A DNA stretch of 50,876 nt from a virus, in the IMG/VR virus record IMGVR_UViG_3300032323_001363, positions 1 through 50,876 of that record; one strand, written 5' to 3'. Shown here piece by piece: positions 9,613-49,224 of the stretch. The translations under genes were made by a program, and so were the position numbers. The first letter of the stretch is position 1, and the number at the start of each line of letters is the position of its first letter. Below the pieces are notes generated by a model that saw only the letters and a list, made by a program, of their open reading frames with translations, searched no databases and was not told the origin of the DNA.

Positions 9613-10203
9613 ATGAACTTAGTACCAATGGTTGTTGAAAGCACATCAAAAGGCGAGCGTGCCTTTGATATCTACAGTCGTTTACTGAAAGAACGTATTG
9701 TTATGTTAAACGGTCCTGTGGAAGATTACATGAGCAATCTGATCGTGGCTCAATTCTTGTTCTTAGAAAGCGAAAACACAGAAAAAGATATCAGTTTGTT
9801 TATTAACAGCCCTGGCGGAGTAGTTACAGCAGGCATGGCAATCTATGATGTAATGCAGTTTGTTAAATGTGATGTAGCCACATACGTTATGGGACAGGCC
9901 TGTTCGATGGGAAGTCTATTAGCCACATCTGGAGCCAAAGGCAAACGCTTTATGTTGCCCAATGCTCGTCATATGATTCATCAACCGTCGGGTGGTGCTC
10001 GTGGACAGGCCACAGACATGGCTATTCAAGTTGAAGAAATTCTTAAAATGAAAAAGTCTTTGACAGACATCTATGTCAAACACAATTCAAAAGGCAAGAG
10101 TTTCGAACAGTTTGCAGCAGACATGGAAAGAGATAAGTTCATGAGCGCACAAGAGGCTTTGGATTATGGACTCATTGATCGAATTATTGAGAAACGTCCG
10201 TGA
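9613..10203 (+). CDS. clpP: ATP-dependent Clp protease proteolytic subunit ClpP (196 aa)
   Basis: The full catalytic triad of ClpP is present: Ser98 in [10 protein letters not shown], His123 in HMIHQPSGG, and Asp174 in [11 protein letters not shown]. The oxyanion-type SPGGVVTAG loop is also intact. Length equals bacterial ClpP (~195 aa). No ClpX or ClpA is in the window, so it probably forms a tetradecamer that uses host unfoldases, or mixes with host subunits. It is promoter-proximal and overlaps the next gene by 4 nt (GTGA). It might redirect host proteolysis, including disposal of tmRNA-tagged proteins (see 46850-47210). Confidence 0.96.
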
Positions 10204-10970
10204 CAAAATTGTTTACTGTTGGTTGCAGTTTAACTAGATACATATGGCCTACGTGGGCCGATATCCTTGGCCGCAGTTTTGATCAATTTGAAAACTGGGG
10301 ACATAGTGGTATTGGTAACAGAGCCATATTTGAAAGAACTATAGAATTAATAGCAACGTCACAGCCTACCAGCGACGACCTTATTATCATCCAGTGGACC
10401 AATCCTTATCGGTTTGATGCACACAAAATTAATCATGATATACCAGTTAGGTGGGCCTGTGCAGGAAATCTAGGCAACTGGCCGCGAGAACTTGCAGAGG
10501 TTGTAGACTGCGAGTTCAGTTACGTTTATCATACCTGTAATTTCATAATAGCCTGTAAAAATGTTTTAGAAAATAAAAAGTTAAAATATATTTTCTTTCT
10601 CAAGGACGACCTACAACCAGACATGGAAAAGTTTTCGGAGTTAGATATATACGCATCCGACATCAATAATATCGAATGGTTTTATCCAATATCTGAATGG
10701 GTTCGAGAATCAGGTTTGCCGTTAAAAGAATTCAAACAAAGAGATTTTTTTAATCTTAAAACTTTAAAAGATGAACATCCGACTCCAATGGCTCATTATC
10801 TTTACTTAGAACAAGTTCTTAATCAAGAACTAAATTTAAAGTTAGATAAAGAGTGGGCGATGACTGCGGATAAATTAGTTTTTCAATCGCAAGGATATAA
10901 AGAGTTATTCGAATCATTGAAAAATGATCTAGACTGGATCGAATATAACACTATTGTAAAAGGATTATAA
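10200..10970 (+). CDS. SGNH/GDSL-like phage protein (256 aa)
   Basis: The N-terminus [19 protein letters not shown] followed by [16 protein letters not shown] (Gly, Asn) resembles the block I and II layout of SGNH hydrolases. [12 protein letters not shown] fits block III. A C-terminal [12 protein letters not shown] carries a plausible Asp/His pair. Such proteins in marine phages are of unknown substrate. It uses a GTG start overlapping the clpP stop and ends in a TAATG overlap, placing it inside the clpP-heptose operon. Esterase activity on surface glycans is inferred. Confidence 0.6.
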
Positions 10971-11371
10971 TGACACAAAGACTACAAGGAAAAGTAGACA
11001 AAGGATGGGGTTATGAAATCATTTGGGCTACCAATGACAAATACGCAGGCAAGATCCTAGTATTTGAACGTGTCGGAGCCAAAATGAGTATGCACTTTCA
11101 TAAAGAAAAAGATGAAACATGGTTCATTAATGCAGGCAGTTTCAAACTAATATACTGTGATACTAAAACTGCAACCTATGGAGAGAAAATACTCAAAGAA
11201 GGGGATGTATGGCATAACCCTCCTATGATGCCACATCAATTAGTAGCCCTCGAAGCCAACTCTATGTTGTTTGAAGTTAGCACTCCAGACTCAGTAGAGG
11301 ATAACTATAGGATCGTACCAGGAGACAGCCAAAATGCTACCAACCCCACCCCAGAACAACAATCAACCTAA
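10970..11371 (+). CDS. Cupin protein, mannose-6-phosphate isomerase type II-like (133 aa)
   Basis: The single cupin domain carries GWGYEIIWA, MHFHKEKDETWF (His, His, Glu metal ligands) and PPMMPHQL (last His). This matches the C-terminal cupin of bifunctional mannose-6-phosphate isomerases or stand-alone sugar-related cupins. It is followed by four heptose-nucleotide genes and overlaps gmhB by 38 nt, so a role in sugar isomerisation or epimerisation is plausible. It is not GmhA, which has a SIS fold. Confidence 0.72.
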   Translation: MTQRLQGKVDKGWGYEIIWATNDKYAGKILVFERVGAKMSMHFHKEKDETWFINAGSFKLIYCDTKTATYGEKILKEGDVWHNPPMMPHQLVALEANSMLFEVSTPDSVEDNYRIVPGDSQNATNPTPEQQST

Positions 11372-11954
11372 GATAGTATGGTCTGGCGGAGAGTTCCGCA
11401 CCAAATGTGTTGTAGGACTAGATCGCGACGGTGTTATCAACAGAGACCTCGGAACATACTGCTACAAGATAGAAGACTTTGACCCTATACCAGGCAGTCT
11501 GGATGCCATTGCTACTCTAAGACGCAAAGGCTATAAGATAGCCGTAATTACAGATCAAGGCGGTATTGAAAAAGGTATCTACACACAGGAACAGGTAGAC
11601 ACTTTGCATGAACATATGCTTAGACTATTAGGAGAAGCAGGATGTTTTAGCATCGATGCTATCTACTATAGTGCCAGTAGCCGAAAGGAAGATCCGTTTG
11701 CCAAACCCAATACTGGTATGTTCAAACGCTGCGAAAAAGAATTCAAAGACATTAAATTCAAAGAAGGTTTCTATGTTGGGGATAAGATCAAAGATCTAAA
11801 AGCCGCAATGAATATAGGTGCAAGACCTGTGTTAGTAAGAACAGGTTACGGAAAAGAAACAGAACAAGAATTGAATAGATATGCACACAGGGACCTCAAA
11901 CGTAAAACTGTGATATTTGATGATCTTGCACAGTTTGTAGAAAGTTTACCATGA
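11334..11954 (+). CDS. gmhB: D-glycero-D-manno-heptose-1,7-bisphosphate phosphatase (GmhB-like, 206 aa)
   Basis: HAD motif I reads VVGLDRDGVINRD (Asp30 nucleophile, Asp32). Motif II has VITDQGGIEKG, and the family-specific KPNTGMFKR supplies the Lys. YVGDKIKDLKAA is motif IV. GmhB removes the 7-phosphate in ADP-heptose synthesis in the cytoplasm. The usual Cys-His zinc loop of GmhB is not evident; a weak YYSASSRKEDPFAKP replaces it. It overlaps the next gene by 4 nt (ATGA). Confidence 0.85.
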   Translation: MLPTPPQNNNQPKIVWSGGEFRTKCVVGLDRDGVINRDLGTYCYKIEDFDPIPGSLDAIATLRRKGYKIAVITDQGGIEKGIYTQEQVDTLHEHMLRLLGEAGCFSIDAIYYSASSRKEDPFAKPNTGMFKRCEKEFKDIKFKEGFYVGDKIKDLKAAMNIGARPVLVRTGYGKETEQELNRYAHRDLKRKTVIFDDLAQFVESLP

Positions 11955-12355
11955 CCAAAGTAATAGTAAACGGAACGTTTGATATTTTACATCTTGGACA
12001 CCTTAAACTATTACAATATGCAAGATCTTTCCCTCAGTCGTATGTGTATGTTCTTATAGACAGCGATCGCCGAGTAAAAGAATTAAAGGGCGAAGATCGT
12101 CCTATTCATAATGAGTATGAAAGGTCTAGTTTTTTATTTGCACTTAAGGCAGTAGATAGAGTAGATATATTTGATTCAGATCAAGAACTGACAGAATATA
12201 TTAAGAACTATGCACCCGATGTTATGGTTAAAGGCGGTGACTATAAAGATAAACCTATAATAGGTGCGGAATATTGTAAAGAAATAAAATTCTATGACAG
12301 ACTTGAAAAATACTCAACAACAAACAAGATACAGGATATTATTAATCGGAGATGA
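11951..12355 (+). CDS. rfaE2: Heptose-1-phosphate adenylyltransferase (HldE C-terminal domain type, 134 aa)
   Basis: The nucleotidyltransferase signature GTFDILHLGHLKLL contains HxGH. It is followed by VLIDSDRRVKELKG and RPIHNEYERSSFL, and by VMVKGGDYKDKPIIGAE, diagnostic of the cytidylyltransferase-like HldE C-terminal domain. It transfers AMP to D-glycero-beta-D-manno-heptose-1-phosphate. In E. coli this domain is fused to the kinase; here kinase and transferase are separate, in reverse order. The kinase frame overlaps its end by 62 nt. Confidence 0.9.
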   Translation: MTKVIVNGTFDILHLGHLKLLQYARSFPQSYVYVLIDSDRRVKELKGEDRPIHNEYERSSFLFALKAVDRVDIFDSDQELTEYIKNYAPDVMVKGGDYKDKPIIGAEYCKEIKFYDRLEKYSTTNKIQDIINRR

Positions 12356-13055
12356 CTGTGAAGATGTGTATCAATATGGTACTATTGATCGCCTCAGTCC
12401 CGAAGCACCTGTGCCTGTGTTCAAATTTAGTCACGAGGAACGCAAACCAGGCATGGCAGGAAATGTCCTACGCAATCTAGAAGCATTAGGTTGTGAAGTA
12501 AATTATCTGCACGGCAAAACTTCTGTTAAAACTAGAATCGTAGATATTCGAAGTAAACAACATATTGTTCGTATAGACAATGATACTGTATCTGAACCGT
12601 TAACATTTGATACATCCATTCCTAATGTCTATGATGCTATTGTTATTAGCGACTACAATAAAGGTACAATATCCTACGACATCATTGAAGAAGCGATTGC
12701 TACTAAGATGCCTGTGTTTGTTGACACAAAGAAAACAGATCTAGAACGTATGCAAGGTGCATGGGTTAAGATTAACGAATTAGAATACAGCAAAATCAAA
12801 AGTGAATGTAGTGGACTAATTGTTACACGTGGTAGTAAAGGTGCAGATGCTGTACATCACAAGTATAGTTCTAAAGCACCAAAGGTAGAAGTAGTAGATG
12901 TCACAGGAGCAGGAGATACATTCCTTGCTGCTCTTGCCTACAACTTCTTACATACTAAAGATATAAAACGAGCAATGGATTTTGCCAACTCATCTGCCGC
13001 TGTTACGGTACAGCATGTTGGTTGCTATGCTCCTACAATGGAAGAAATATTATGA
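12294..13055 (+). CDS. rfaE1: Shortened heptose-7-phosphate kinase (HldE N-terminal domain type, 253 aa)
   Basis: A PfkB-family kinase. TIDRLSPEAPVPVFK and RKPGMAGNVLRNLEALG match the HldE kinase N-terminus, and VDVTGAGDTFLAAL near residue 205 is the ATP/anion-hole motif with the catalytic Asp. At 253 aa it is about 65 residues shorter than the E. coli domain; the stretch after LGCEVNYLHGKTSVKTRIV lacks the segment that usually covers the active site. Activity is likely but not certain. The start overlaps the transferase by 62 nt; no later ATG precedes the conserved N-terminus. Confidence 0.85.
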   Translation: MTDLKNTQQQTRYRILLIGDDCEDVYQYGTIDRLSPEAPVPVFKFSHEERKPGMAGNVLRNLEALGCEVNYLHGKTSVKTRIVDIRSKQHIVRIDNDTVSEPLTFDTSIPNVYDAIVISDYNKGTISYDIIEEAIATKMPVFVDTKKTDLERMQGAWVKINELEYSKIKSECSGLIVTRGSKGADAVHHKYSSKAPKVEVVDVTGAGDTFLAALAYNFLHTKDIKRAMDFANSSAAVTVQHVGCYAPTMEEIL

Positions 13056-37423: not shown

Positions 37424-39742
37424 ATGATTACAGTAATAAAAAGAGATGGAAAAAAAGAACCACTAATGATTGAAAAGTGGCAGGCACAAGTGGCAAAGGT
37501 CTGTAAAGGCATAGCAGATGTTAGCCAGTCAATGATAGAAATCAAAGCGCAGTTACATTTTTACGATGGCATTACTACACGAGAAGTTGATGGTATTACA
37601 CTTAGAGCGATTGTAGATTTAATTGACGTTGAACACAATCCAGACGTGGGACATACTAACTATCAGTATGTGGCTGGCAAGCAACGTCTAAGCATGTTGC
37701 GCAAAGACGTCTATGGTTCATATGAACCTCCTCGATTGTTTGAAATCGTAAAAAGAAATGTAGATGTAGGATTGTACACTCCAGAATTACTTACATGGTA
37801 CACTGAAGACGACTGGAACAAAATGGACGATATCATCGACCATGAAAAGGATGAGCAGTACGGGTACGCATCTATCGAACAGTTGATTGAAAAATATCTA
37901 GTACGAAATCGTGCTACAAAAGAAATTTACGAAACACCACAAGTTAGATATATGATTGCGGCCGCAACGGTTTTCCATAAGGAAGAACCTAACTCGGCTC
38001 GTATGAAATATATTAAGGAATATTATAATGCTGCTTCTGATGGGCTTTTTACTCTTGCTACTCCTGTCCTTGCTGGCCTTGGCACTCCGACGAAACAATT
38101 TTCTTCTTGCGTTCTCATTAGGTCTGATGATGACCTGGATAGTATATTCGCTAGTGGGGAAATGATGGCCAAGTATGCCAGCAAACGTGCAGGCATTGGT
38201 TTAGAGATTGGTAGACTACGCCCATTAGGTAGTCCCATCAGAGGTGGTGAGATTATGCACACAGGTATGATACCATTCCTGAAAAAATGGTTCGGTGATT
38301 TAAGGAGTTGTTCACAAGGTGGAATTCGTAATGCATCTGCTACTGTCTTTTATCCCATTTGGCATCATCAGTTTGATGATCTCATTGTTCTCAAGAACAA
38401 CCAAGGTACAGACGAGACACGAGTACGACACATGGACTACGGGGTCGTCCTGTCGGCCTTCTTCTGGAGAAGATTTAAAAACAAAGAAGACATAACTTTC
38501 TTTGATCCTAACGAAGTACCAGAACTATATGAAGCATTCTATAAAGATTCTGCTTTGTTTGAAGAAATGTATGTCAAATATGAAAAGCGCAAGGACCTAC
38601 GTAAAAAGGTCATGAACGCTGAAGATGTTTTCAAGGGTGGTATACTGAAAGAACGCACAGATACGGGTCGCATCTATTTGGTGTTTATTGATAATGTAAT
38701 GAATCAAGGACCATTCGATCCTGAATATCATACGATATATCAGAGTAACCTGTGCTGTGAGATCCTATTACCCACACGTCCATTTAAACGATTAGACGAC
38801 GCTGATGGTCGCATAGCGTTATGTACACTGGGATCTATCAATTGGGGATCGTTCCGAAATCCAGAGGATATGCGTAGAGCCTGTAGGATTCTACAGCGTA
38901 GCCTGTGTAACATCCTTGATTACCAAGACTTTTTAAGTATTCAAAGTAAACTAAGCAATGATGAGATCCAGCCACTAGGCATTGGTGTTACTAACCTAGC
39001 CTACTGGCATGCCAAGCGTGGATTCAAATACGGTGAGAAGGATGCACTAGCAGATGTTAAGAGTTGGATGGAGCATCAGGCTTTTTATCTAACAGAAGCC
39101 ACTGTTGAGTTAGCCAAAGAAAGAGGCAGATGTATAGACAGTGATAAGACACGATACGGTCAGGGTATTTTTCCTTGGGAACTAAGAAGCAAAGGTGCAG
39201 ATGATTTAACCAGTTTTAAACCTGAACTGGATTGGGAAACATTGCGCAAGGAGATGAAAGAGCATGGAGTACGAAATGCCACTCTTATGGCTATTGCTCC
39301 TGTTGAGTCTAGTTCTGTTGTTATTAATAGTACTAACGGCATAGAAATGCCTATGAGTTTAATTTCAACAAAAGAAAGCAAGGCAGGGTCCTTTACACAG
39401 GTCGTACCTGAATATCATAAGTTAAAAAACAAATATCAATTGATGTGGGATCAAAAAGACTGCGAAGGATATATTAAGACTGCGGCAGTTCTAGGTGCAT
39501 ATGTTGATCAAAGTATATCAACAAACACATTTTATAATCCAGCACATTTCCCAGGCCGTAAGGTTCCAACAACATTGATTGCTAAGAATTTAATGTTGGC
39601 TCATTATTGGGGTATTAAAACTTTTTATTATAGTTTGATCAATAAGGCCGGAGCCAAACAAGAAGAGATTGCTCATAGCAATGGATATCATATTGAACCA
39701 GATCAATTATTAGAAGATGATTGCGAGGCATGTAAACTGTAA
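37424..39742 (+). CDS. nrdA: Class I ribonucleotide reductase alpha subunit (772 aa)
   Basis: An ATP-cone occupies residues 1-90 (MITVIKRDGKKEPLMIEKW). FSSCVLIRSDDDLDSIF gives the first redox cysteine. SNLCCEILLPTRP has the radical Cys region, and NATLMAIAPVESSSVVINSTNGIEMP is the substrate-site and effector motif. The C-terminal DDCEACKL supplies the mobile CxxC pair. Length matches E. coli NrdA (761). It converts NDPs to dNDPs. It overlaps the aldolase start by 1 nt (TAATG). Confidence 0.97.
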   Translation: MITVIKRDGKKEPLMIEKWQAQVAKVCKGIADVSQSMIEIKAQLHFYDGITTREVDGITLRAIVDLIDVEHNPDVGHTNYQYVAGKQRLSMLRKDVYGSYEPPRLFEIVKRNVDVGLYTPELLTWYTEDDWNKMDDIIDHEKDEQYGYASIEQLIEKYLVRNRATKEIYETPQVRYMIAAATVFHKEEPNSARMKYIKEYYNAASDGLFTLATPVLAGLGTPTKQFSSCVLIRSDDDLDSIFASGEMMAKYASKRAGIGLEIGRLRPLGSPIRGGEIMHTGMIPFLKKWFGDLRSCSQGGIRNASATVFYPIWHHQFDDLIVLKNNQGTDETRVRHMDYGVVLSAFFWRRFKNKEDITFFDPNEVPELYEAFYKDSALFEEMYVKYEKRKDLRKKVMNAEDVFKGGILKERTDTGRIYLVFIDNVMNQGPFDPEYHTIYQSNLCCEILLPTRPFKRLDDADGRIALCTLGSINWGSFRNPEDMRRACRILQRSLCNILDYQDFLSIQSKLSNDEIQPLGIGVTNLAYWHAKRGFKYGEKDALADVKSWMEHQAFYLTEATVELAKERGRCIDSDKTRYGQGIFPWELRSKGADDLTSFKPELDWETLRKEMKEHGVRNATLMAIAPVESSSVVINSTNGIEMPMSLISTKESKAGSFTQVVPEYHKLKNKYQLMWDQKDCEGYIKTAAVLGAYVDQSISTNTFYNPAHFPGRKVPTTLIAKNLMLAHYWGIKTFYYSLINKAGAKQEEIAHSNGYHIEPDQLLEDDCEACKL

Positions 39743-40377
39743 TGTTAGAAACTATATGTGATATTATGGTAGACGCTTACAAGCGTAACTGGATTACCAG
39801 TCGTGATGGTAATGTAAGCATTCGACATCACGACCGCGATCACTTTTACATTACACCTAGTGGTGTACGTAAGCAGACTCTACAGCCTGATCAGTTTAAA
39901 AAGATCGGTATATTAACACAACCAGTTAATCGCTATACCTGGCATGAACTGCCCTACACTGATATCAGCGAAAAACTAAAGCCCAGTGGAGAGATACCAC
40001 TGCATTTTGGTCTACAAAAACAAATGGGCCAACATGCAGGTGAAGTTCGTGTAGTTGTACACGTTCATCCTACTTACTGTATTGCGGCCATGCATGCCGG
40101 TATTGATTTAAGCACAATTAGTAATGAGTTTCCAGAATTAAATCGTTATACAAAAGTGGCCAAGAATGTAGGAGATGTGCCGCCTATTAGTCAAGAACTA
40201 GCAGATCGTTGTCACGAAAACTTGTGGCTACAAAAAGACGGCACTATTGCCTATGACATTGTGGGCATTAAAGGACACGGAGTAGTTGCCATTGATACTA
40301 GCCCATGGCGTGCCTATGAGCACATAGAAAGATTAGAACACATTTGCAAGATAGTACTTGCATCGGGAAAATACTAA
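39742..40377 (+). CDS. Class II aldolase/adducin family protein (211 aa)
   Basis: DGNVSIRHHDRDHFYITPSGVRK is the phosphate-binding front. SGEIPLHFGL supplies the catalytic Glu. VVVHVHPTYC gives the first two zinc His and IKGHGVVAI the third. Members include FucA, RhaD, MtnB and AraD. It is placed between nrdA and nrdB with single-base overlaps on both sides. The substrate is unknown; a methylthioribulose or sugar-phosphate role is possible. Confidence 0.9.
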   Translation: MLETICDIMVDAYKRNWITSRDGNVSIRHHDRDHFYITPSGVRKQTLQPDQFKKIGILTQPVNRYTWHELPYTDISEKLKPSGEIPLHFGLQKQMGQHAGEVRVVVHVHPTYCIAAMHAGIDLSTISNEFPELNRYTKVAKNVGDVPPISQELADRCHENLWLQKDGTIAYDIVGIKGHGVVAIDTSPWRAYEHIERLEHICKIVLASGKY

Positions 40378-41477
40378 TGAGCAAACAACAATATAATTTA
40401 ACACAGAACACAGACTATCTTAATCGTAAGATGTTTCTAGATCCAGCAGGACCTGTAACCATACAACGATTTGAAGAAGTAAAATATAAAAAGGTTGCAG
40501 ACTTTGAAACTACCGCACGTGGTTTCTTTTGGGTTCCTGAAGAAATCAGTCTAGCCAAAGATGCAAATGATTTTAAGGAAGCCAGCGATGCAGTTAAACA
40601 TATCTTCACTAGTAACCTGCTTAGGCAAACTGCTCTTGACAGTCTGCAAGGTCGCGGCCCAAGTCAAATCTTTACTCCGGTCGTAAGTCTTCCAGAACTA
40701 GAAGCATTGGTCTACAACTGGACATTCTTTGAAACTAACATTCACAGTCGCAGTTACAGCCACATCATCCGCAACATTTACAATGTGCCCAAGGAAGTGT
40801 TCAATACTATCCACGACACACAACCCATTGTGGATATGGCATCTAGTATAGGACTATATTATGAAAAATTGCACATGATCAACTGTCGTAAAGAATTAGG
40901 TGAAACAATTGATGAATACGAACACATCAAAGCAATTTGGTTAGCCCTTAATGCCAGTTACGGTCTAGAAGCATTCCGCTTTATGGTATCATTTGCCACA
41001 AGTCTAGCAATGGTAGAAAACAAGATCTTCATTGGCAATGGCAACATTATCAGCCTCATCCTACAAGACGAATTGTTACACAAAGGTTGGACTGCTTGGA
41101 TGATTAATCAAGCGGTCAAAGAAGATGAACGATTTGCTCGAGCCAAAGCAGAATGCGAAGCAGAAGTATATCAAATGTATATAGATGTTATTCGTGAAGA
41201 AAAATCGTGGGCAGAGTATCTGTTCCAAAAAGGTCCAGTTATTGGACTTAATGCAAACATCCTCAAAGACTTTGTTGATTATACAGCCGCAGTGGCTCTA
41301 AAAGAAATTGGAATTAAATATAATAATCCTGCACCAAAGTCTACACCAATACCTTGGTTTAACAAACACAGTGATACCAGTAAGAAACAGACTGCTTTGC
41401 AAGAAAACGAAAGCACCAACTATGTTATTGGTGTGATGAGTGAAAATATTGACTATGAGGCTTTGCCGACTATATAA
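40377..41477 (+). CDS. nrdB: Class I ribonucleotide reductase beta subunit (366 aa)
   Basis: The radical-Tyr motif is ETNIHSRSYSHIIRNI. Di-iron ligands are in WVPEEISLAKDANDF (Glu, Asp), ETNIHSRSY and LNASYGLEAFRFMVSFA ... LILQDELLHKGW (Glu, His). This is NrdB of class Ia with a conventional Tyr. Length is normal (E. coli 376). The start at 40377 overlaps the aldolase stop (TAATGA). It forms the active enzyme with NrdA and feeds DNA synthesis. Confidence 0.96.
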   Translation: MSKQQYNLTQNTDYLNRKMFLDPAGPVTIQRFEEVKYKKVADFETTARGFFWVPEEISLAKDANDFKEASDAVKHIFTSNLLRQTALDSLQGRGPSQIFTPVVSLPELEALVYNWTFFETNIHSRSYSHIIRNIYNVPKEVFNTIHDTQPIVDMASSIGLYYEKLHMINCRKELGETIDEYEHIKAIWLALNASYGLEAFRFMVSFATSLAMVENKIFIGNGNIISLILQDELLHKGWTAWMINQAVKEDERFARAKAECEAEVYQMYIDVIREEKSWAEYLFQKGPVIGLNANILKDFVDYTAAVALKEIGIKYNNPAPKSTPIPWFNKHSDTSKKQTALQENESTNYVIGVMSENIDYEALPTI

Positions 41478-41479
41478 TT

Positions 41480-41650
41480 ATGAACTATAAAGCACAGTAT
41501 AAAATGCGTAGCCCTTTTGATTCATGGAAGAACGCTAGTTCTTTTGGTAATGAATCAGCGGCTATAGCAGAAGCACTAAGAAAAAAACGTGCCGGTGCTT
41601 TGTTAGTTAGAGTAGTTGACAGCAAAGGTAAAGTAGTTTATTCAGCATAG
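41480..41650 (+). CDS. Small basic protein (56 aa)
   Basis: Reads MNYKAQYKMRSPFDSWKNAS and ends GKVVYSA. Starts 2 nt after nrdB. It is a basic mixed alpha/beta protein without a recognised family, embedded between nrdB and glutaredoxin, so it is likely to belong to this operon. Similar short proteins lie beside RNR genes in other phages only in position. Confidence 0.7.
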   Translation: MNYKAQYKMRSPFDSWKNASSFGNESAAIAEALRKKRAGALLVRVVDSKGKVVYSA

Positions 41651-41661
41651 AAAGGAAAAAA

Positions 41662-41901
41662 ATGAGAGCGGTTGTATGGAGCAAGTATCACTGCCCTTAT
41701 TGTGATCAAGCAAAAGCATTGTTGACAAAAAAGGGCATTCAATTTGAAGAACGCAAGATAGGCGACGGTTATACCAAAGAAGAATTATTAGAAGCGGTAC
41801 CGAACGCAAGAACAGTCCCACAAATTTTTCTAGATGAAAAATTAATTGGTGGATTTACAGAACTAAAAAAATTCTTTGATCAAGGAGACGGAAGTCTTTA
41901 A
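41662..41901 (+). CDS. Glutaredoxin (79 aa)
   Basis: CPYCDQAKALL (CPYC active site), RTVPQIFLDEKLIGGFTEL (cis-Pro and GG) are complete; a typical single-domain glutaredoxin. AAAGGAAAAA provides the ribosome site. It would reduce the C-terminal cysteine pair of NrdA, whose genes lie just upstream. Confidence 0.95.
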   Translation: MRAVVWSKYHCPYCDQAKALLTKKGIQFEERKIGDGYTKEELLEAVPNARTVPQIFLDEKLIGGFTELKKFFDQGDGSL

Positions 41902-41910
41902 CCGTAATTT

Positions 41911-44067
41911 ATGGGATGGTTCAACGAATTTCACAAGAAGAACAAACAAAGACCAGTAAGGGAAGTCAATGATCACGACAAGCATCAAGCCATGCTCGAT
42001 GCTATTGCACCTTATGCAAAATCAAAAGTCCAGTCGAACTTAACAGAAGTTACGATATCTAAATCAACAAAAAATACCAAAGTATGTTTTATATTGATGC
42101 CAGAGTGGGCTACAAACTTCCCTCCTTACAATCTTGCTAGATTAAATTCTGTAGTAAAAGAATCTGGATACGATTCTAAATGTCTAGATTTAAATGTTAA
42201 ATCTTGGAATTATTATAAACATAATTTAGAAGAACAGATAGATTTTGATCCTTGGAGCGGACCTAGGGATTGGTGTTGGGTTGGAGACAACTATTACAAA
42301 AATATTCATCAACACCTAGAACCTTTTTATAGACAACAAATAGAAGAAATTAAAAAATTCAAGCCCGATGTCATAGGTTTCACTATCTACTATTGTAATT
42401 TTGAATCAGTGAAATGGATGTCAGCAGAACTAAGAAAAGAAATTCCTAATATTAAAATTGTAGTCGGTGGCCCACATATGCAAGCGAGGCCAATAGTAGA
42501 TGAAATTTTTGATTTTGGTGTTGCTGGAGAAGGTGAATTATTGATTCTAGAACTATTAGAAGAAATAGAAAACGGAAATCTTAATGTTGATTATAGATTG
42601 CGTTATCAACCCGAAGAACAGCGACTTAATCTTAACAGTCTTCCTCTACCAGATTACAGCGATATAGATTTTAACGAGTACGCTGTACCTAACGGTATTA
42701 ACAGCGAACTTAGCAGAGGATGTACTGCTAAATGTACCTTCTGCGAAGAAACACATTTTTGGAAATACAGACAGCGTCAAGCAGTAGATGTTATACAAGA
42801 GATAGAAACACTATACTATACTAAAGGCACGGATGTTGTATGGTTCCTAGACAGTCTTGTCAACGGCAACCTTAACGAACTGAGAGCATTCGCTAAAGGA
42901 ATAATTGCTAAAGGTATTAAAATAAAATGGGTAGGCTATTGTCGTAATGACGGGAGGATGGACGCAGACTATTATAAAGATCTAGCAGAAAGCGGATGCT
43001 TTATGTTGAGTTATGGTTGCGAATCTGCCAGTCAGAGAGTGTTAGACGACATTGCTAAAGGAACCACCACAGCCGATATGGAACAGAATTTTAGGGATGG
43101 ATCTGCTGTAGGAATAAAAGCACATACCAATTGGATAGTGGGATTCCCTACAGAAGGTTATCAAGATTTCGCAGATACTATGACGTTTATATGGCGTAAT
43201 AGAAATAACGGTATAGTTGATATTTCTCCAGGGTTTGGATTTGGTCTTTCTGTATCAACTATTGCAGGTCAGAATCCAGCAAGATTTAATTTACTCGATC
43301 ACAAATACATGGACACATGGATTACCAAAGACTTTAAACTTGGTAAACTGCATGTGTTGTCTAGAGTAAAATCTTTTGCTATTTTCTTACAACACTTGAT
43401 CAGCAAAGAAGATATTGCAATATCTCATAGACCCAATCTTCCTAAATTACATTACAAGTTAAATTGGAAAAATCCTAAAAACATTAAAGAAATAGAATAC
43501 GAACAATTTGATTACAACATCATTGAGCCCAATATTAATCCTTTTGCTGACACCTTAGTTAATGAGATGTTTGTTTTGTTTAGGATGTTATGGAGAACAA
43601 GAGGTGCTTATAGTATTGAAGTGATATTTGATGAAGATCTAGATATGAAAGAATTTGGAGATCGTAACGCTGGACCTTATTGGGCTAAACAGAAATTTGA
43701 AATAGATGAACACGGTTTATGGAAAGCACACTTTACCTTTAAATTTAAACAGCCTGAAAGTTTAATAGATCCTCCAGACCCACTCACTCCTAGAATTCCG
43801 TTTTTTGCACAAGATTATTCTAGAGTACAAACTAACAACGCCAAAAGAGCCAAAAAATTAGCCAAGCCAAGTTGGGGAGACGAAGGACGATCTCATGAAG
43901 AATTCCATGCTTTATTAGAAGAAGAAAAATTATTAAATTCTACAGTTGACTTATCTTTCGAATATGAATGGCAGGGTCAAGGCGATTGGTCTAATCCAGA
44001 AAGATTTCGTGTAGAACCATCTAAGGGCAAAATTAAAAAAATTACCCCTATAATTCCCACAACATAA
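41911..44067 (+). CDS. B12-binding-domain radical SAM protein (718 aa)
   Basis: Residues ~50-230 form a B12-binding-like Rossmann domain (VCFILMPEWATNFPPYNLARL, IVVGGPHMQARPIVDEIF, VAGEGELL). The radical SAM motif is SRGCTAKCTFCEETHFW (CxxxCxxC). VGFPTEGYQDF and a SYGCESASQRVLDDIAKG helix follow, in the usual order. The C-terminal ~250 residues are unique. Members are methylases or ring-forming enzymes; substrate unknown. The cobalamin-binding DxHxxG is not obvious. The gene has no clear Shine-Dalgarno. Confidence 0.9.
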   Translation: MGWFNEFHKKNKQRPVREVNDHDKHQAMLDAIAPYAKSKVQSNLTEVTISKSTKNTKVCFILMPEWATNFPPYNLARLNSVVKESGYDSKCLDLNVKSWNYYKHNLEEQIDFDPWSGPRDWCWVGDNYYKNIHQHLEPFYRQQIEEIKKFKPDVIGFTIYYCNFESVKWMSAELRKEIPNIKIVVGGPHMQARPIVDEIFDFGVAGEGELLILELLEEIENGNLNVDYRLRYQPEEQRLNLNSLPLPDYSDIDFNEYAVPNGINSELSRGCTAKCTFCEETHFWKYRQRQAVDVIQEIETLYYTKGTDVVWFLDSLVNGNLNELRAFAKGIIAKGIKIKWVGYCRNDGRMDADYYKDLAESGCFMLSYGCESASQRVLDDIAKGTTTADMEQNFRDGSAVGIKAHTNWIVGFPTEGYQDFADTMTFIWRNRNNGIVDISPGFGFGLSVSTIAGQNPARFNLLDHKYMDTWITKDFKLGKLHVLSRVKSFAIFLQHLISKEDIAISHRPNLPKLHYKLNWKNPKNIKEIEYEQFDYNIIEPNINPFADTLVNEMFVLFRMLWRTRGAYSIEVIFDEDLDMKEFGDRNAGPYWAKQKFEIDEHGLWKAHFTFKFKQPESLIDPPDPLTPRIPFFAQDYSRVQTNNAKRAKKLAKPSWGDEGRSHEEFHALLEEEKLLNSTVDLSFEYEWQGQGDWSNPERFRVEPSKGKIKKITPIIPTT

Positions 44068-44071
44068 ATAT
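44064..44071 (+). promoter_or_regulatory. Late-promoter-like motif ATAAATAT
   Basis: Lies 18 nt before the start at 44090; ATAGGAC is a weak ribosome site. Confidence 0.5.
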
Positions 44072-44089
44072 TTCAAAATAGGACAACAT

Positions 44090-44383
44090 ATGTTAATAGA
44101 CAAAGGATTAAGTGCCGGATCAATAGTAACCATGAAATTAATCAATGGTGAAGAAATTATGGCCAAACTAGTTGAAGAAACTGCTGCGGGATTTAAAATT
44201 TCAAAACCTCTATCTCTAAATGCTGGTCCAAAAGGACTAGGAATGATTCCATTTTTGTTTACTGTGGATCACGAAAAAGATATCGTTATTAACAAATCAG
44301 CAGTAATGGCTATTACTACTACTGAACAAGAGTTTGCTAATCAATACACTCAAGGTACCACAGGTATCGCTATTGCAGGATAA
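44090..44383 (+). CDS. LSm-like small phage protein (97 aa)
   Basis: The N-terminal half (VTMKLINGEEIMAKLVEETAAGFKISKP) reads as a small SH3-like or LSm-like beta-barrel. The second half has ITTTEQEF and a Gly/Thr/Ala tail. The family is found in marine phages; function is not known, RNA binding is possible. It lies 2 nt before the PAAR gene. Confidence 0.6.
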   Translation: MLIDKGLSAGSIVTMKLINGEEIMAKLVEETAAGFKISKPLSLNAGPKGLGMIPFLFTVDHEKDIVINKSAVMAITTTEQEFANQYTQGTTGIAIAG

Positions 44384-44385
44384 TC

Positions 44386-44649
44386 ATGCCAGGAGTCAGC
44401 AGAGTAGGAACAGATAAAGCAGGTGGTACCATTGTTGGTAATCTTGCCCCTACGGTCTTAGTTAATGGTTCACCTATTGCTGTAAAAGGTGCAGCAGTAG
44501 CTGGACACGGGCGAGCACCGCATTCGGGTCCTGTAATGAGCGGCAGCAGTGGTACAGTTAAAGCCAATGGAATTTCTATTTGTCGTGCTGGAGACTCTGC
44601 TACCTGCGGTCATGCTGCTTCGGGCAGCGGCAATGTTATAGCAGGTTAA
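44386..44649 (+). CDS. PAAR-domain spike-tip protein (87 aa)
   Basis: Repeated VNGSPIAVKGAAVAGHG, VKANGISICRAGDSATCGHAASG segments with His and Cys metal ligands are typical of PAAR proteins (T4 gp5.4-like). It would cap the central baseplate spike and help pierce the outer membrane. Length equals the family (~85-100 aa). Its next-door partner is the LSm-like gene, and the DUF454 gene follows after 1 nt. Confidence 0.93.
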   Translation: MPGVSRVGTDKAGGTIVGNLAPTVLVNGSPIAVKGAAVAGHGRAPHSGPVMSGSSGTVKANGISICRAGDSATCGHAASGSGNVIAG

Positions 44650-44650
44650 T

Positions 44651-45061
44651 ATGAAAAAATTATTTTGGAACATTTTAGGATTCTTAAGTTTAGGCATGGC
44701 CTATATTGGAATCATTACTCCCGGCGTACCCTATAGTATCTTTGTGGTATTTGCTGCTTACTGTTTTAGCAAAGGCAGCGAGCGTATGCATCGTTGGATT
44801 TACAATCATAAAATATTCGGACCATTCTTAACTAACTGGAATGAACGACGTGTGTTTCCACAAAAGATGCGTTACCTAATGTTAGGCATGATGACATTGA
44901 GTTTGTGCATTATGTTTTTCACAGGAGTGAAACCTATAGGAATTTTATCTACCGCAGTGTTTATGGCTCTAGTGGCTGTGTGGGCATGGCGTTTTCCAAA
45001 TTCTGTAGAAGAACACGATCGTCGTAAAGCAGAAGGTAAGAGGATCGGATGGCTCAAGTAA
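44651..45061 (+). CDS. DUF454/YbaN-like inner-membrane protein (136 aa)
   Basis: The N-terminus KKLFWNILGFLSLGMAYIGIITPGVPYSIFVVFAAYCFSKGSERMHRWI is the YbaN/DUF454 signature (LPTTPFLLLA analogue and SERFHxWL). Two further hydrophobic segments lie at ~77-92 and ~95-115. It ends with a basic tail. Function in bacteria is unknown. It overlaps the next oxygenase by 13 nt. Confidence 0.85.
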   Translation: MKKLFWNILGFLSLGMAYIGIITPGVPYSIFVVFAAYCFSKGSERMHRWIYNHKIFGPFLTNWNERRVFPQKMRYLMLGMMTLSLCIMFFTGVKPIGILSTAVFMALVAVWAWRFPNSVEEHDRRKAEGKRIGWLK

Positions 45062-45696
45062 ACTATACCGTACATAAATTATTTCCTACTCCTGTATATA
45101 GAAGTAAAGTAAGCGTTGATACACTAACATATCATAAGTTGACTAATGGGTTTGAGTGGGAAGTGCCTGATAATTACGGCAACGATATTATTACTCATAA
45201 AGAAACTAAGGAAAGACACATCTTAGATCTTCCTCAGTTCTCCGGTTTAAAAAAACAAGTTCAGAATCATGTAAACACATTTGCTTTTGATATTCTTTCC
45301 TGTCAAAAAAATATCTCATGGGAAATTACAACCTCTTGGGTAAATGAAGTAGTTAAAGGCGGATACAGTGCTATGCACACTCACGCCAACAGTCTTATCA
45401 GTGGTACTTTGTATTTGAATGTAGATGAACGATCTGGAGGTTTGGCTTTCCATAAAGAGCCATCTTACAAACCGTTGTGGCATGACACTATAAGAATTGA
45501 TTTTGATCAAATTACAGACTTTACAACTGAAGCCAGTGTATTTCTTCCTGCACAAAATGATATATTGTTATTTCCTAGTGTACTGGCACACAGCGTTTTG
45601 ATTAATGAATCTGATATTGTTAGGTATAGTCTAGCATTCAATGTATTTCCTAGAGGTGTATTTGGTCAGGGCGGAAATAGCGAACTGACATTATGA
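45049..45696 (+). CDS. 2OG-Fe(II) oxygenase, TIGR02466-like (215 aa)
   Basis: KLFPTPVYRSKV at the start; GGYSAMHTHANSLISGTLYLN supplies metal His. LLFPSVLAHSVLINESDIVRYSLAFN holds the distal His and the Arg for 2-oxoglutarate. It is a tandem paralogue of the next gene, with a 4-nt overlap. The product's target is unknown; phage capsid or tail proteins next door (PAAR) are candidates. Confidence 0.82.
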   Translation: MAQVNYTVHKLFPTPVYRSKVSVDTLTYHKLTNGFEWEVPDNYGNDIITHKETKERHILDLPQFSGLKKQVQNHVNTFAFDILSCQKNISWEITTSWVNEVVKGGYSAMHTHANSLISGTLYLNVDERSGGLAFHKEPSYKPLWHDTIRIDFDQITDFTTEASVFLPAQNDILLFPSVLAHSVLINESDIVRYSLAFNVFPRGVFGQGGNSELTL

Positions 45697-46334
45697 AACA
45701 CAGTCTTACACCGTTGTTTGCAATTCCATTATATCAGGCAAACATAGGAAAAGATCATCAAGAAATAGATTTTATTAAAAAACAAGAGTTCTCACGTATG
45801 CCGGCTGACAACGGTAGTTACACTGTAAATAAACGAGTTTTAGATCTTGTAGAATTAAAAAATCTTAGAGAAAAAATACAATCTCATATTGATCATTTTA
45901 TGTACGAAGTTTTAGACTGTGACAATCAACTATCTTTTGAAATACAAAACAGTTGGGTAAATCAACACAACAAGAATGATTTTGCCGGATCTCACAGACA
46001 TTCGAATAGTATTATTAGCGGAGTATATTATCCAGAAGTTGACGATCAAAGCGGTGCTATAGTTTTTCAAAAAGACAAAAGTTATTACAATCTTTGGACT
46101 GATACCATAGAAATAGGATTTAATTATCAAAAGCACAGCAGACAAGATAAGTTAAATGTTTTTAATGCTGATGCTTGGGGAATATACCCACAACCTGGGG
46201 ATATTGTTCTGTTTCCCAGCCTATTGTACCACTCTGTTACAGAAAACCATTCAAATAACGTTAGATATAGTTTGGCTTTTAATGTATTTCCCAAAGGCGA
46301 TTTTGGCGATCATATTAACAATTTGAAATTATAG
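45693..46334 (+). CDS. 2OG-Fe(II) oxygenase, TIGR02466-like (213 aa)
   Basis: PLFAIPLYQANIG opens, then FAGSHRHSNSIISGVYYPEVD and IVLFPSLLYHSVTENHSNNVRYSLAFNVFPKG. It follows the previous gene in every block and shares the ending YSLAFNVFP, so the pair arose by duplication. Both keep His, His and Arg. Whether they have different targets cannot be told. Confidence 0.82.
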   Translation: MKHSLTPLFAIPLYQANIGKDHQEIDFIKKQEFSRMPADNGSYTVNKRVLDLVELKNLREKIQSHIDHFMYEVLDCDNQLSFEIQNSWVNQHNKNDFAGSHRHSNSIISGVYYPEVDDQSGAIVFQKDKSYYNLWTDTIEIGFNYQKHSRQDKLNVFNADAWGIYPQPGDIVLFPSLLYHSVTENHSNNVRYSLAFNVFPKGDFGDHINNLKL

Positions 46335-46360
46335 ATATTGACATCTCTGCTTAAAGATGC

Positions 46361-46368
46361 TTAAATAG
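46361..46368 (+). promoter_or_regulatory. Late-promoter-like motif TTAAATAG
   Basis: Begins the ~110-nt leader of the cold-shock gene; TTGACA lies upstream at 46339-46344. Confidence 0.35.
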
Positions 46369-46373
46369 CATAT

Positions 46374-46439
46374 ATGAAGATTTTGTTAGATAGAGTAATT
46401 GAGACAGGCAGTAACCTTTGTGTTAGTACCGCGAGATGA
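46374..46439 (+). CDS. Possible upstream peptide in the csp leader (21 aa)
   Basis: MKILLDRVIETGSNLCVSTA plus Arg, stop at 46437. There is no strong ribosome site. It may be a leader peptide or chance frame; it resembles neither a targeting leader nor a known attenuator. Confidence 0.25.
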   Translation: MKILLDRVIETGSNLCVSTAR

Positions 46440-46481
46440 AATAGACAGACCAGTAATATACAACACAAAGGAAAAAGTAAC

Positions 46482-46685
46482 ATGACAACAGGAAAAGTAA
46501 AATGGTTTAATGATGCCAAGGGTTTTGGTTTCATCACTCCAGACAACGGTGGCGCAGATTTGTTTGCACACTTTTCACAGATTAATTCGAGCGGTTTTAA
46601 AAGCCTGCAAGAAGGACAGAGTGTAAGGTTTGATATAGTTATGGGACCGAAAGGTCAGCAGGCTAGCAACATTCAACCTGCCTAA
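46482..46685 (+). CDS. Cold-shock domain protein (67 aa)
   Basis: [31 protein letters not shown] contains RNP1 (KGFGFI) and RNP2 (DLFAHF), the single-strand nucleic-acid-binding faces of the CspA fold. It melts RNA structure and could help translation of phage mRNA. The ~110-nt leader may regulate it, as in host csp genes. AAAGGAAAAA is the ribosome site. Confidence 0.95.
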
Positions 46686-46690
46686 TTAGT

Positions 46691-46759
46691 ATGAAACTGT
46701 ATCACATAATTGTAGTGGCTCTTATTGCTACGTTTATTTGGATACATTTTTACATGTAA
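46691..46759 (+). CDS. Tiny membrane peptide (22 aa)
   Basis: MKLYHIIVVALIATFIWIHF, Tyr, Met, stop: a single hydrophobic helix. It lies 5 nt after csp and has no clear ribosome site of its own. It may be a small holin-like, toxin-like or membrane regulator, or a chance frame. Confidence 0.35.
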   Translation: MKLYHIIVVALIATFIWIHFYM

Positions 46760-46768
46760 GGGAATAAT

Positions 46769-46840
46769 ATGGAATCTGACTACAGTTTTGCTATTGGAAT
46801 AATAGTAGTTGTTGTTGTTTTTTTCTTAGTCCTTTATTGA
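46769..46840 (+). CDS. Tiny membrane peptide (23 aa)
   Basis: MESDYSFAIGIIVVVVVFFL, Val, Leu, Tyr, stop: one transmembrane helix with an acidic N-terminus. AAGGGAATA lies upstream at 46758-46766 as ribosome site, better than for the previous peptide. It is just before the tmRNA gene. Confidence 0.42.
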   Translation: MESDYSFAIGIIVVVVVFFLVLY

Positions 46841-46849
46841 AGTTATTGC

Positions 46850-47210
46850 TGTAAGAAGCAAAGAGAAAAGTGTTCTGGACGCGGGTTCGACTCCCGCCTG
46901 GTCCACCATAAAACACATTGGGCTGGTCGTAAATTCATTGTTGGACTTTAAGACTTAGTGTGTTTTATAATGGGCCAGTCATGGTTTCGACAGGGCAAAG
47001 AGTAACAGAGTGGACAGCACGGTAATGCGAAAACCGTAGGGTTGGGGGAACTCGGCCGAAGAAGCAAAAAACGTAAATGCAAACGCAGATACATTCGACT
47101 TTACAGCGTTGAACTTCACTGGTAACACTGTTGCCAATGACAGCAGATTCGCTCTAGCAGCCTAAGAAACTGCAGGTCCGGGGCAACTATGCCTTGTTAA
47201 CCAAAATAGT
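46850..47210 (+). ncRNA. ssrA: Circularly permuted two-piece tmRNA
   Basis: The acceptor piece comes first: T arm GCGGG-TTCGACT-CCCGC (46881-46897), then CTGGTCC-A-CCA (46898-46908). The coding piece starts at GGGCCAG (46972), which pairs with CTGGTCC to give a 7-bp acceptor stem, then TGGTTTCGACAGGG, a standard tmRNA 5' segment. The 63-nt intervening part begins TAAAACACA and ends TGTGTTTTATAAT, so it extends the stem in the precursor. The tag frame ends FALAA then TAA at 47163. This order is the permuted form of alphaproteobacteria and some other groups. Confidence 0.95.
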
Positions 47211-47237
47211 GAAAAGCACCTTCGGGTGCTTTTCTTT
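47211..47237 (+). terminator. Terminator of the tmRNA
   Basis: GAAAAGCACC-TTCG-GGTGCTTTTC: 10-bp stem followed by T's. Confidence 0.9.
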
Positions 47238-47282
47238 TGGTAGAAAATTTACCTCAGTAGATTTTCTTTTATAAGTATCTGT

Positions 47283-48038
47283 ATGAATACTTTAACCGTA
47301 GGCGGATGTAAAATTCCTGTAACAAATAACATACAATCAAATCTAATAGAAATTAAACTAGCGATCGAGTGGGCTTCCGACAATGAAGTTAAATTATTAG
47401 TTACTCCGGAGTGTGCCCTAAGCGGATACCTTTGGGCTCCTGTAGACCAGGATCCAAAAATAAAAGAATTGGCTGAGGCTTTAGAAGAAATAGAAAACTA
47501 CTCTAAAGAAAAGAAAGTTGATTTGATTTTAGGAACAGCATGTTATAATAACAACGGCGATTGGGCAAACACTCAACGTTATATTTTTAATGGTAAGTTT
47601 GTAACCGAATACTCGAAAAATTTATTAATAGATCCTGAATTTATCTATACTAGTAAACGATCACTTCCTCCTATTATAAATTATAATGGTGTAAAGATAT
47701 CTGGACTTATATGCAACGACTTTTGGTCTAATCCAGTGTTATTTCCTAATGGATCTAGTCAACTGCTAGGACACTTGCTACAAAATGAAGTACAGATAGT
47801 ATTTGTCAGCGCCTTTGTTCCAAAAGAACCCGGACCGGAAAATTCTTTTTATCATTGGCATCTTGGACAGATATCCAATATGGGGTTGTACTGCCAATTT
47901 GCTACAGTAGTATCAGATGCATCTACAAATGTTGACGGATCACCTTACGCTGGCCAGCCTGCATGTCCTGTAGGTATTTGGGACATGAGCGGTAAATCTA
48001 TCACAGGCGAAAAGTATTTTAAGCACACATTTTCTTAA
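47283..48038 (+). CDS. Carbon-nitrogen hydrolase (nitrilase superfamily, 251 aa)
   Basis: The Glu-Lys-Cys triad is visible: LLVTPECALSGY (Glu), YSKNLLIDPEF (Lys) and SGLICNDFWSNP (Cys). GTACYNNNGDWANTQRYIFNG also matches. Length is slightly shorter than usual (~260-290). It would hydrolyse an amide or nitrile, maybe glutamine-like or NAD-synthetase-like, but the substrate cannot be read. It is separate from both neighbours. Confidence 0.88.
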   Translation: MNTLTVGGCKIPVTNNIQSNLIEIKLAIEWASDNEVKLLVTPECALSGYLWAPVDQDPKIKELAEALEEIENYSKEKKVDLILGTACYNNNGDWANTQRYIFNGKFVTEYSKNLLIDPEFIYTSKRSLPPIINYNGVKISGLICNDFWSNPVLFPNGSSQLLGHLLQNEVQIVFVSAFVPKEPGPENSFYHWHLGQISNMGLYCQFATVVSDASTNVDGSPYAGQPACPVGIWDMSGKSITGEKYFKHTFS

Positions 48039-48092
48039 ATCGATATTGAAAAAACCTATTAGCGTCATTAAAAAATATTTAGGAAAAACCTA

Positions 48093-48122
48093 TTGATTTT
48101 GTATCTTAATAGGATATATAAT
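48093..48122 (+). promoter_or_regulatory. Sigma70-type promoter of ahpC-ahpD
   Basis: TTGATT (48093-48098) and TATAAT (48117-48122) are 18 nt apart. AAAAACCTATT is repeated (near 48051 and 48085) and CCTAT/ATAGG flank the -35. The leader ends CAACACACACAAGGAGAAG, as in the phasin-like gene. Confidence 0.75.
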
Positions 48123-48175
48123 ATACACATAGAACAGCAGTTCTTAGAAGTTTTCAACACACACAAGGAGAAGAT

Positions 48176-48709
48176 ATGAAAACAGTTGGACATAAATTAG
48201 AAAAATTTGCCGTAACAGGCGTTAACCCAGGTAGTGATAATTTTTTCACTATCACAGAAGAGTCATTTCCAGGTAAATGGAAAGTAATTGCATACTATCC
48301 AAAGGACTTTACATTCGTTTGTCCTACAGAGATTGTAGCCTATGACAAACTGTTTCAAGACTTTGCTGACCGTGATGCAGTATTGCTCACAGGATCCACA
48401 GACAACGAGTTCTGCAAACTAGCATGGCAAGCCGCTCACGAGGATCTTAAGAAGATCAAACACATTCAGTTCGCTGACACACAACGCGGTGAGTTATCAT
48501 TGATTGATCAACTAGGTGTGTTCTACGCACCAGCAGGTGCCGCACTTCGTGCCACATTCATTGTTGATCCTAACAATGAAATTCAACACGTAACTGTTAA
48601 CAACTTGAACGTTGGTCGCTCATCAGACGAAACACTTCGTATTCTTGACGCATTACAAACTGGCGAAAAGTGTGCATGTAACCGTACAGTGGGCGGGGAG
48701 ACTCTATAA
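48176..48709 (+). CDS. ahpC: Peroxiredoxin AhpC (177 aa)
   Basis: YYPKDFTFVCPTEIVAYDK holds the peroxidatic Cys49. GSTDNEFCKLAW and LRATFIVDP follow family order, and Cys166/Cys168 near the C-terminus (GEKCACNRTVGG) provide the resolving cysteine. It removes hydroperoxides in the cytoplasm; AhpD is the usual reducing partner in this subtype. AAGGAGA precedes ATG. It overlaps ahpD by 1 nt (TAATG). Confidence 0.96.
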   Translation: MKTVGHKLEKFAVTGVNPGSDNFFTITEESFPGKWKVIAYYPKDFTFVCPTEIVAYDKLFQDFADRDAVLLTGSTDNEFCKLAWQAAHEDLKKIKHIQFADTQRGELSLIDQLGVFYAPAGAALRATFIVDPNNEIQHVTVNNLNVGRSSDETLRILDALQTGEKCACNRTVGGETL

Positions 48710-49224
48710 TGACTGCTTGGGTAGATCAACTTAAAGACACTATTCCTGACTATGCCAAAGACACACGTCTTAACATCGATGCAGTAGTTAAGCGTTCAAC
48801 TCTACCCCAAGAAGAAGCAGAAGCAGTTGCATTGGCAGCGGCTTTTGCCTCTGGCAATACTAAATTGTGGACTTGGATGCAGAGTCAGATTGCTGACCAA
48901 AAAGAAGCAGAAGCCGCAATCACAGCCGCTAGTCTAATGGCCATGAACAACGTTTGGTATCCTTATGTTGAAATGGCTGAAGATGCTAATCTTAGCGGCC
49001 TGCCTCCACAGTTGCGTATGAATGCCATTTCAACACATGGCGGCACTACACAAGAAAGATTTGAAGCATACGCATTGTCTGCTTCAATTGTAGGCAAGTG
49101 TCACTTCTGTGTGAAAGCACATTACGAAACATTAAAAAAAGCAGGGTACACAGTAGAACAACTCCGAGATATTGGACGTATTGCCGCAGTTATTACGGCT
49201 GTAGCAAGAGTTCTTAATGGTTAA
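48709..49224 (+). CDS. ahpD: Alkylhydroperoxidase AhpD (171 aa)
   Basis: GKCHFCVKAHYETLKKAG has Cys131, Cys134 and His138, with Glu117 upstream, matching the catalytic set of AhpD. Length equals that of mycobacterial AhpD (~177). It reduces AhpC via a lipoyl partner, and has some peroxidase activity of its own. The pair is complete and terminator-bounded. Confidence 0.95.
   Translation: MTAWVDQLKDTIPDYAKDTRLNIDAVVKRSTLPQEEAEAVALAAAFASGNTKLWTWMQSQIADQKEAEAAITAASLMAMNNVWYPYVEMAEDANLSGLPPQLRMNAISTHGGTTQERFEAYALSASIVGKCHFCVKAHYETLKKAGYTVEQLRDIGRIAAVITAVARVLNG

Follow-up and report, generated by a model that had tools for sequence, protein, structure and literature searches.

A two-piece phage tmRNA gene with a conserved, stretched peptide tag

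The permuted tmRNA gene and its phage record

The window considered here is the virus record IMGVR_UViG_3300032323_001363 over its whole length of 50,876 nt, and the element in question is a circularly permuted gene for transfer-messenger RNA (tmRNA), the encoded tag of which is unusually long. tmRNA rescues stalled ribosomes and labels the incomplete protein for degradation. ARAGORN calls a permuted tmRNA (tmRNA*) at 46816-47256. The covariance-model search proposed in an earlier note on this DNA, performed with Infernal, returns RF04321 (tmRNA_permuted) at full model length with 113.7 bits (E = 1.7e-21, gathering cutoff 47) and RF01850 (beta_tmRNA) with 95.2 bits (E = 1.1e-27), the latter with a modest margin over its gathering cutoff of 84. 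In the covariance-model match the acceptor piece precedes the coding piece, and the gene possesses a 7-bp acceptor stem spanning both pieces, G3-U70, CCA, and a tag frame with resume codon, stop codon and an Ala-Ala end (...ALAA*) at 47079-47165. We regard the window gene as a real permuted tmRNA with near certainty. It is composed as follows:

46847-46908, plus strand: acceptor piece with T arm, 3' acceptor strand and CCA end (ARAGORN, RF04321, RF01850)
46881-46897, plus strand: T arm GCGGG-TTCGACT-CCCGC (sequence, covariance model)
46898-46908, plus strand: 3' acceptor strand CTGGTCC (46898-46904), discriminator A (46905; A in 108/108 permuted relatives) and CCA (46906-46908)
46909-46971, plus strand: 63-nt spacer, presumably excised during maturation of the precursor, its ends forming a 14-bp stem, TAAAACACATTGGG/CTTAGTGTGTTTTA (folding, relatives)
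46972-47210, plus strand: coding (mRNA-like) piece, beginning with the 5' acceptor strand GGGCCAG (with G3-U70) and ending at the terminator (ARAGORN, covariance models, relatives; 3' end inferred)
47211-47240, plus strand: Rho-independent terminator directly 3' of the tmRNA (10-pair stem, T run)

Congruent with the earlier note, which had placed the acceptor piece with its T arm and CCA ahead of the coding piece, ARAGORN and the two Rfam models agree on this order and on the positions. The note had also paired GGGCCAG (46972-46978) with CTGGTCC (46898-46904), and these strands indeed rebuild a 7-bp stem with G3-U70. For comparison, the fetched loci provided 108 distinct permuted tmRNAs, the majority of them viral and some bacterial, all selected for 7/7 pairing. 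In this set, pairs 1, 2 and 7 and G3-U70 are invariant and the discriminator is always A, while pairs 4-6 change on both strands (CG/GC/TA, etc.). The spacer is bounded by TAAAACACA and TGTGTTTTA, where the note had put its limits, and the precursor stem expected there is present: 46847-46985 folds at -48.2 kcal/mol (z = -3.9 versus shuffles), the acceptor stem running without a break into the spacer stem. Among the 108 relatives the terminal stem of the spacer recurs in 84 distinct sequences, with a median of 10 bp as compared to a mean of 4.8 bp in shuffled spacers. The architecture is thus that of a two-piece tmRNA, and it is very probable that the molecule would be made in this form.

As a separate observation, the first-pseudoknot segment of the window (47021-47066; also in L212, L086 and L176) is an alternative version, approximately 20 nt longer and common to long- and short-tag relatives, which suggests recombination between tmRNA parts.

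Judged by its genes, the record is a fragment of a tailed phage. It encodes ribonucleotide reductase, a virion structural protein closest to cyanophage proteins (at most 52% identity, with S-RIM32), a tail-spike-like open reading frame (ORF), an ATP-dependent DNA ligase and numerous genes of metabolism. Parts of the order ribonucleotide reductase - thioredoxin-like - DUF454 - 2-oxoglutarate (2OG) oxygenases - cold-shock protein - tmRNA - AhpC - carboxymuconolactone decarboxylase (CMD) are found again in dozens of other viral contigs. The earlier assignment of the tmRNA to a phage, as opposed to a bacterial contig, consequently holds on both the virion, reductase and tail genes and the synteny.

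The stretched tag and its distribution

The tag itself, which had been overlooked, comprises 28 residues, about three times the usual length of approximately 10. Three segments are distinguished:

47079-47165, plus strand: tag reading frame, 28 codons and UAA, ANADTFDFTALNFTGNTVANDSRFALAA; resume codon GCA at 47079, UAA at 47163-47165 (ARAGORN, sequence)
47079-47132, plus strand: the 18 codons (54 nt) that the 10-residue tag of close relatives lacks (alignment with L070 and others; pN/pS)
47133-47165, plus strand: ordinary beta-type degron module ANDSRFALAA and UAA (tag comparison, alignment with relatives)

In a close relative, L070, the same locus, between the same neighbours, encodes the short tag ANDERFALAA; the ribonucleotide reductase subunits of L070 are about 92% identical to those of the window (large subunit 92%). 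Aligned to L070, the window carries 54 additional nt in one clean in-frame block, at each end of which the Ala-Asn codons are repeated. The window tag has therefore gained 18 phage-specific codons in frame ahead of a normal beta-type degron, and the repeated AN codons leave the exact insertion point ambiguous. The C-termini LAA, IAA, MAA or VAA are kept in the long tags, and degradation is hence still the likely fate of tagged chains. Aromatic residues are enriched in the extension, at 17% versus 11% in short tags. A tag start at the internal ANDSRFALAA is disfavoured, as the upstream codons are conserved as protein and a resume-codon hairpin lies at 47073-47092. Copying of the insert from another window protein was ruled out, with no match beyond the tmRNA itself.

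Long tags of this kind are widespread among viruses. Using the tag-start pattern A[NKT]A[DNS]TF[DEK][FY], in which part of TF[DEK][FY] is demanded by the scan itself, we recovered at least 119 viral contigs from the fetched loci with complete frames of 22-31 codons, representing 62 distinct peptides that share this start. In an independent viral sample, collected by acceptor sequence only, 73 permuted tmRNAs fall into two classes, with tags of 9-14 residues (56) or 23-31 residues (17) and none between. Run against genome_contigs, which represents 84,980 bacterial and archaeal species by one genome each, the same tag-start pattern matched four contigs, none of them at a tmRNA, and a bacterial origin of the motif was accordingly dropped. 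Among the isolated phages of INPHARED none carries the window tag, with chance matches only.

These data also bear on whether the gene might be part of a host ssrA gene that was acquired through integration, or might come from bacterial DNA contaminating the contig. Mobile elements are known to integrate at ssrA (PMC11915505), and the gene is beta_tmRNA-like. However, the gene is complete, its phage neighbours keep their order in dozens of viral contigs, and its tag motif was found in no tmRNA of the bacterial and archaeal collection, making such an origin exceedingly improbable.

Probable selection on the insert and the proposed fate of tagged chains

In the subgroup of long tags to which the window belongs (25 distinct sequences), variation in inserted codons 6-18 sits in third positions, with a ratio of non-synonymous to synonymous variation (pN/pS) of 0.13 and p = 6e-5 in a codon-phase permutation test that ignores phylogeny. 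The last ten codons, i.e. the degron, are looser, at 0.56. It is thus quite likely, judging from these substitution patterns, that the extension is selected as a peptide in this subgroup. Two hairpins flank the segment:

47073-47092, plus strand: hairpin around the resume codon (GUA..UGC-AAAC-GCA..UAC), general in tmRNAs and not long-tag-specific
47157-47173, plus strand: hairpin whose loop contains the stop codon (GCAG/CUGC; GCUG/CAGC in relatives), with compensatory change in 14/29 sequences

Conservation of the insert might instead reflect RNA structure, or the path of the mRNA-like region through the ribosome channel, rather than the peptide. Congruent with this, codons 1, 3 and 5 are invariant in 75 distinct tags, free third positions included, and pair in the resume-codon hairpin. 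However, that hairpin is about as frequent in short-tag and bacterial tmRNA genes, and the consensus fold contains no helix from beyond codon 5 to the stop-codon hairpin, a stretch where variation is mostly third-position; we consequently consider an RNA-level explanation improbable. A long-tag-specific hairpin at the resume codon was likewise abandoned, since short-tag and bacterial tmRNAs have hairpins there too.

Another possibility is an ordinary two-piece phage tmRNA for ribosome recycling, with the extra codons as a tolerated spacer, perhaps a longer handle for an unfoldase. Retention of the degron end fits this, as do the diverse and weakly constrained extensions of long-tag subgroup B (TF[EK][FY]...), and the extension cannot be essential, given that some phages with this gene neighbourhood have short tags; two-piece phage tmRNAs are moreover known as such (PMC9004378). 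On the other hand, the insert in the window's subgroup is under stronger amino-acid constraint than the degron, and TF[DEK][FY] is kept even in subgroup B, though the scan pattern demanded part of that motif. We therefore view a mere spacer as possible but rather unlikely.

Turning to potential partners, SmpB was found in none of the 32 long-tag records, six of which exceed 200 kb, with working positive controls and with the reservation that records may be fragments. Host SmpB is thus the likely partner. SspB was likewise not found in the eight long-tag records searched, again with working positive controls. The lack of an encoded SmpB would also suit a decoy, an RNA that sequesters SmpB of the host or blocks its trans-translation. 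Such a role has been proposed for the tmRNA of mycobacteriophage DS6A, which has the tRNA-like domain only, and a DS6A-like molecule inhibits endogenous tmRNA (PMC4131195, PMC11915505). However, the mRNA-like region, resume codon, frame, stop codon and degron of the window gene are all intact and constrained, rendering a decoy very unlikely.

The earlier note had further proposed that the tmRNA possibly operates together with the phage's own ClpP:

9613-10203, plus strand: phage ClpP protease subunit with intact Ser98-His123-Asp174 triad, a possible partner (profile scores, catalytic residues)

The identity of this ORF was confirmed, with 312.6 bits to NF001368 (NCBIfam ClpP, cutoff 249) versus 108.8 to the head-maturation family, and 293 bits to TIGR00493, slightly below the cutoff of 308.6. 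Joint working gains strength from the large relatives and stays a proposal from gene content. Counting true ClpP at 200 bits or more, it is encoded by 5/7 large long-tag records (at least 130 kb) versus 1/15 large short-tag records (at least 100 kb), with a one-sided Fisher p = 0.004 that is uncorrected for relatedness. The corresponding figures for ClpA-type ATPases, which combine an IGF loop with two AAA+ modules, are 4/7 and 2/15 (p = 0.05). The long-tag unfoldases are ORFs of 746-754 residues with the IGF ClpP-binding loop, namely L252 (G006), L253 (G004), L254 (G001) and L255 (G002); one ClpA of a giant relative reaches 885 bits to TIGR02639, below the equivalog cutoff of 993. Records G001, G004 and G006 encode true ClpP beside ClpA, possibly constituting a phage ClpAP. 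We also observed the word DISAM in several subgroup-B tags and, beside a KYRG motif, in the phage ClpA of L252, L254 and L255, which may well be chance.

Aggregated, we favour, as moderately probable, a working phage tmRNA that acts with host SmpB and in which the selected insert adds an element recognized by a protease or an adaptor. The gene would be expressed and its RNA processed into two pieces by host RNase P and tRNA 3'-end processing, charged by host alanyl-tRNA synthetase, and employed with SmpB on the host ribosome, adding the long tag to nascent chains on stalled ribosomes in infected cells. The inserted segment would then probably serve as an extra recognition element, for which phage ClpA/ClpP, host Lon or an adaptor are possible readers, so that the phage would dictate how tagged phage or host fragments from degraded mRNAs are removed, with the ribosome freed for reuse. 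By analogy to the Mesoplasma florum tag and Lon, a protease or an adaptor may recognize the insert, and phage ClpAP is the most attractive candidate for this. Whether the extension alters such routing is, to our judgement, evenly balanced, and routing to phage ClpAP specifically is doubtful. Equally tentative is a large tailed-phage group with a proprietary disposal route, where the 22-31-residue tag of a two-piece tmRNA would be read by phage ClpA/ClpP or a phage adaptor and tagged products would go to a phage protease instead of the usual host pathway. A tag that is about three times longer and conserved in this virus and its relatives suggests that these viruses write their own disposal label.

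Several observations weigh against this interpretation. First, 300 genomes from a single bacterial order yielded 13 strong permuted tmRNAs, 12 of them with tags of 10-11 residues, but the exception, L268 (bacterial genome G297), has a predicted 28-residue tag of unrelated sequence, GNQPSNLQVMQQFDVPTPANGDQYLNVA, and length alone is thus not phage-specific. L268 is a second, permuted tmRNA in a bacterial chromosome; it was considered as a prophage, yet an MFS transporter and a phosphonate-binding protein flank it, with no prophage sign within 3 kb. Second, constraint in subgroup B is weak (pN/pS 0.5-0.6, not significant), and peptide selection is therefore demonstrated for the window's subgroup alone. 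Third, there are long-tag records without true ClpP (G002, G003) or without ClpA (G003, G005), so phage ClpAP is not required and the ClpP link is a tendency, which moreover disregards relatedness and stems from records that may be incomplete.

tmRNA tags have long been regarded as short, nearly interchangeable degrons. Many phages have lengthened theirs by an in-frame segment, which in one subgroup is kept by selection at the amino-acid level. As close relatives carry short and long tags at the same locus, a natural experiment is available, and the vague question of why phages carry tmRNA becomes directly testable. The long phage tag could also provide an orthogonal degradation tag for laboratory use.

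Gene neighbourhood and known systems

The immediate neighbours of the tmRNA are:

46482-46685, plus strand: cold-shock protein, a neighbour that many long-tag phages conserve upstream of the tmRNA (annotation, synteny)
48176-49224, plus strand: AhpC-type peroxiredoxin and carboxymuconolactone-decarboxylase-family gene, conserved downstream neighbours (annotation, synteny)

The surroundings (37424-49224) form a redox-oriented cluster with class I ribonucleotide reductase, a thioredoxin-like protein, a B12-binding radical SAM protein, AhpC peroxiredoxin and a CMD/AhpD-like protein. Two adjacent 2OG-Fe(II) oxygenase-family ORFs (45049-46334) both match phrog_81 and resemble a tandem duplication. 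Further away, at 10970-13055, a cysteine-dioxygenase-like ORF, an HldE-like nucleotidyltransferase and a pfkB-family kinase lie in a row, possibly a phage-borne route for heptose or surface sugar activation. T4-type late promoters (TATAAAT) are not in excess in the window, and none lies just upstream of the tmRNA.

The permuted tmRNAs of RF04321 and RF01850 belong to Alphaproteobacteria, some Betaproteobacteria and Cyanobacteria. The window gene shares with them the gene order, acceptor stem with G3-U70, T arm, CCA and spacer stem, as well as the resume codon, the degron ending in ALAA and the stop hairpin, and differs in being phage-borne and in its tag of 28 instead of 10 residues. Stenotrophomonas and Xanthomonas phages (Marzo, Moby, X1, Rb1, QDWS359) also carry a permuted tmRNA, near ribonucleotide reductase genes in several records, with short tags of 12-14 residues in the four examined, unlike the 28 of the window. 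The permuted tmRNAs that ARAGORN detects in Xanthomonas phage X1 (L123), Stenotrophomonas phage QDWS359 (L124), Alcaligenes phage QDWS595 (L125) and Xanthomonas phage Rb1 (L126) are unannotated in the deposited records, and in QDWS359 an annotated 'hypothetical protein' runs antisense across the gene.

The extended tags of Mycoplasma and Mesoplasma florum are unrelated in sequence to that of the window and represent an earlier case in which the tag is tied to another protease. Unlike the Mycoplasma type, from bacteria without ClpXP, the window tag keeps the ClpXP/ClpAP-type ALAA end, and its gene is viral and permuted. In Mesoplasma florum, where ClpXP is absent, the unusual ssrA tag is handled by Lon (PMC8138137), and Lon degradation of the extended tags is credited to Gur and Sauer 2008 and Ge and Karzai 2009 in passages of PMC8138137 or PMC11986505. 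The commonest tag length in the 2025 tmRNA database, which includes 79 phage tmRNAs, is 10 residues (PMC11915505). Huge phages with tmRNA and SmpB have been published (PMC7162821); the long-tag phages resemble them in having tmRNA in large phages, and differ from this phage-encoded module in that none of the 32 records encodes SmpB.

A further close system is that of the OM43 phage Melnitz, for which, as for other marine phages, the passages of PMC9004378 considered here describe a phage-encoded permuted tmRNA that, like ours, probably uses host SmpB. Its tmRNA is of alpha/SAR11 type, as opposed to the beta type of the window, and an extended tag is not mentioned in these passages; a glutamine riboswitch, present in Melnitz, has no match in the window at the gathering threshold. 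These passages also report a survey of 18,146 phage genomes in which ARAGORN called 53 tmRNA structures two-piece. A split phage tmRNA alone is therefore known rather than new. Long phage tags, or jumbo-phage tmRNA with ClpA, were met in no paper of the literature searched, and what is new here is the conserved, stretched tag.
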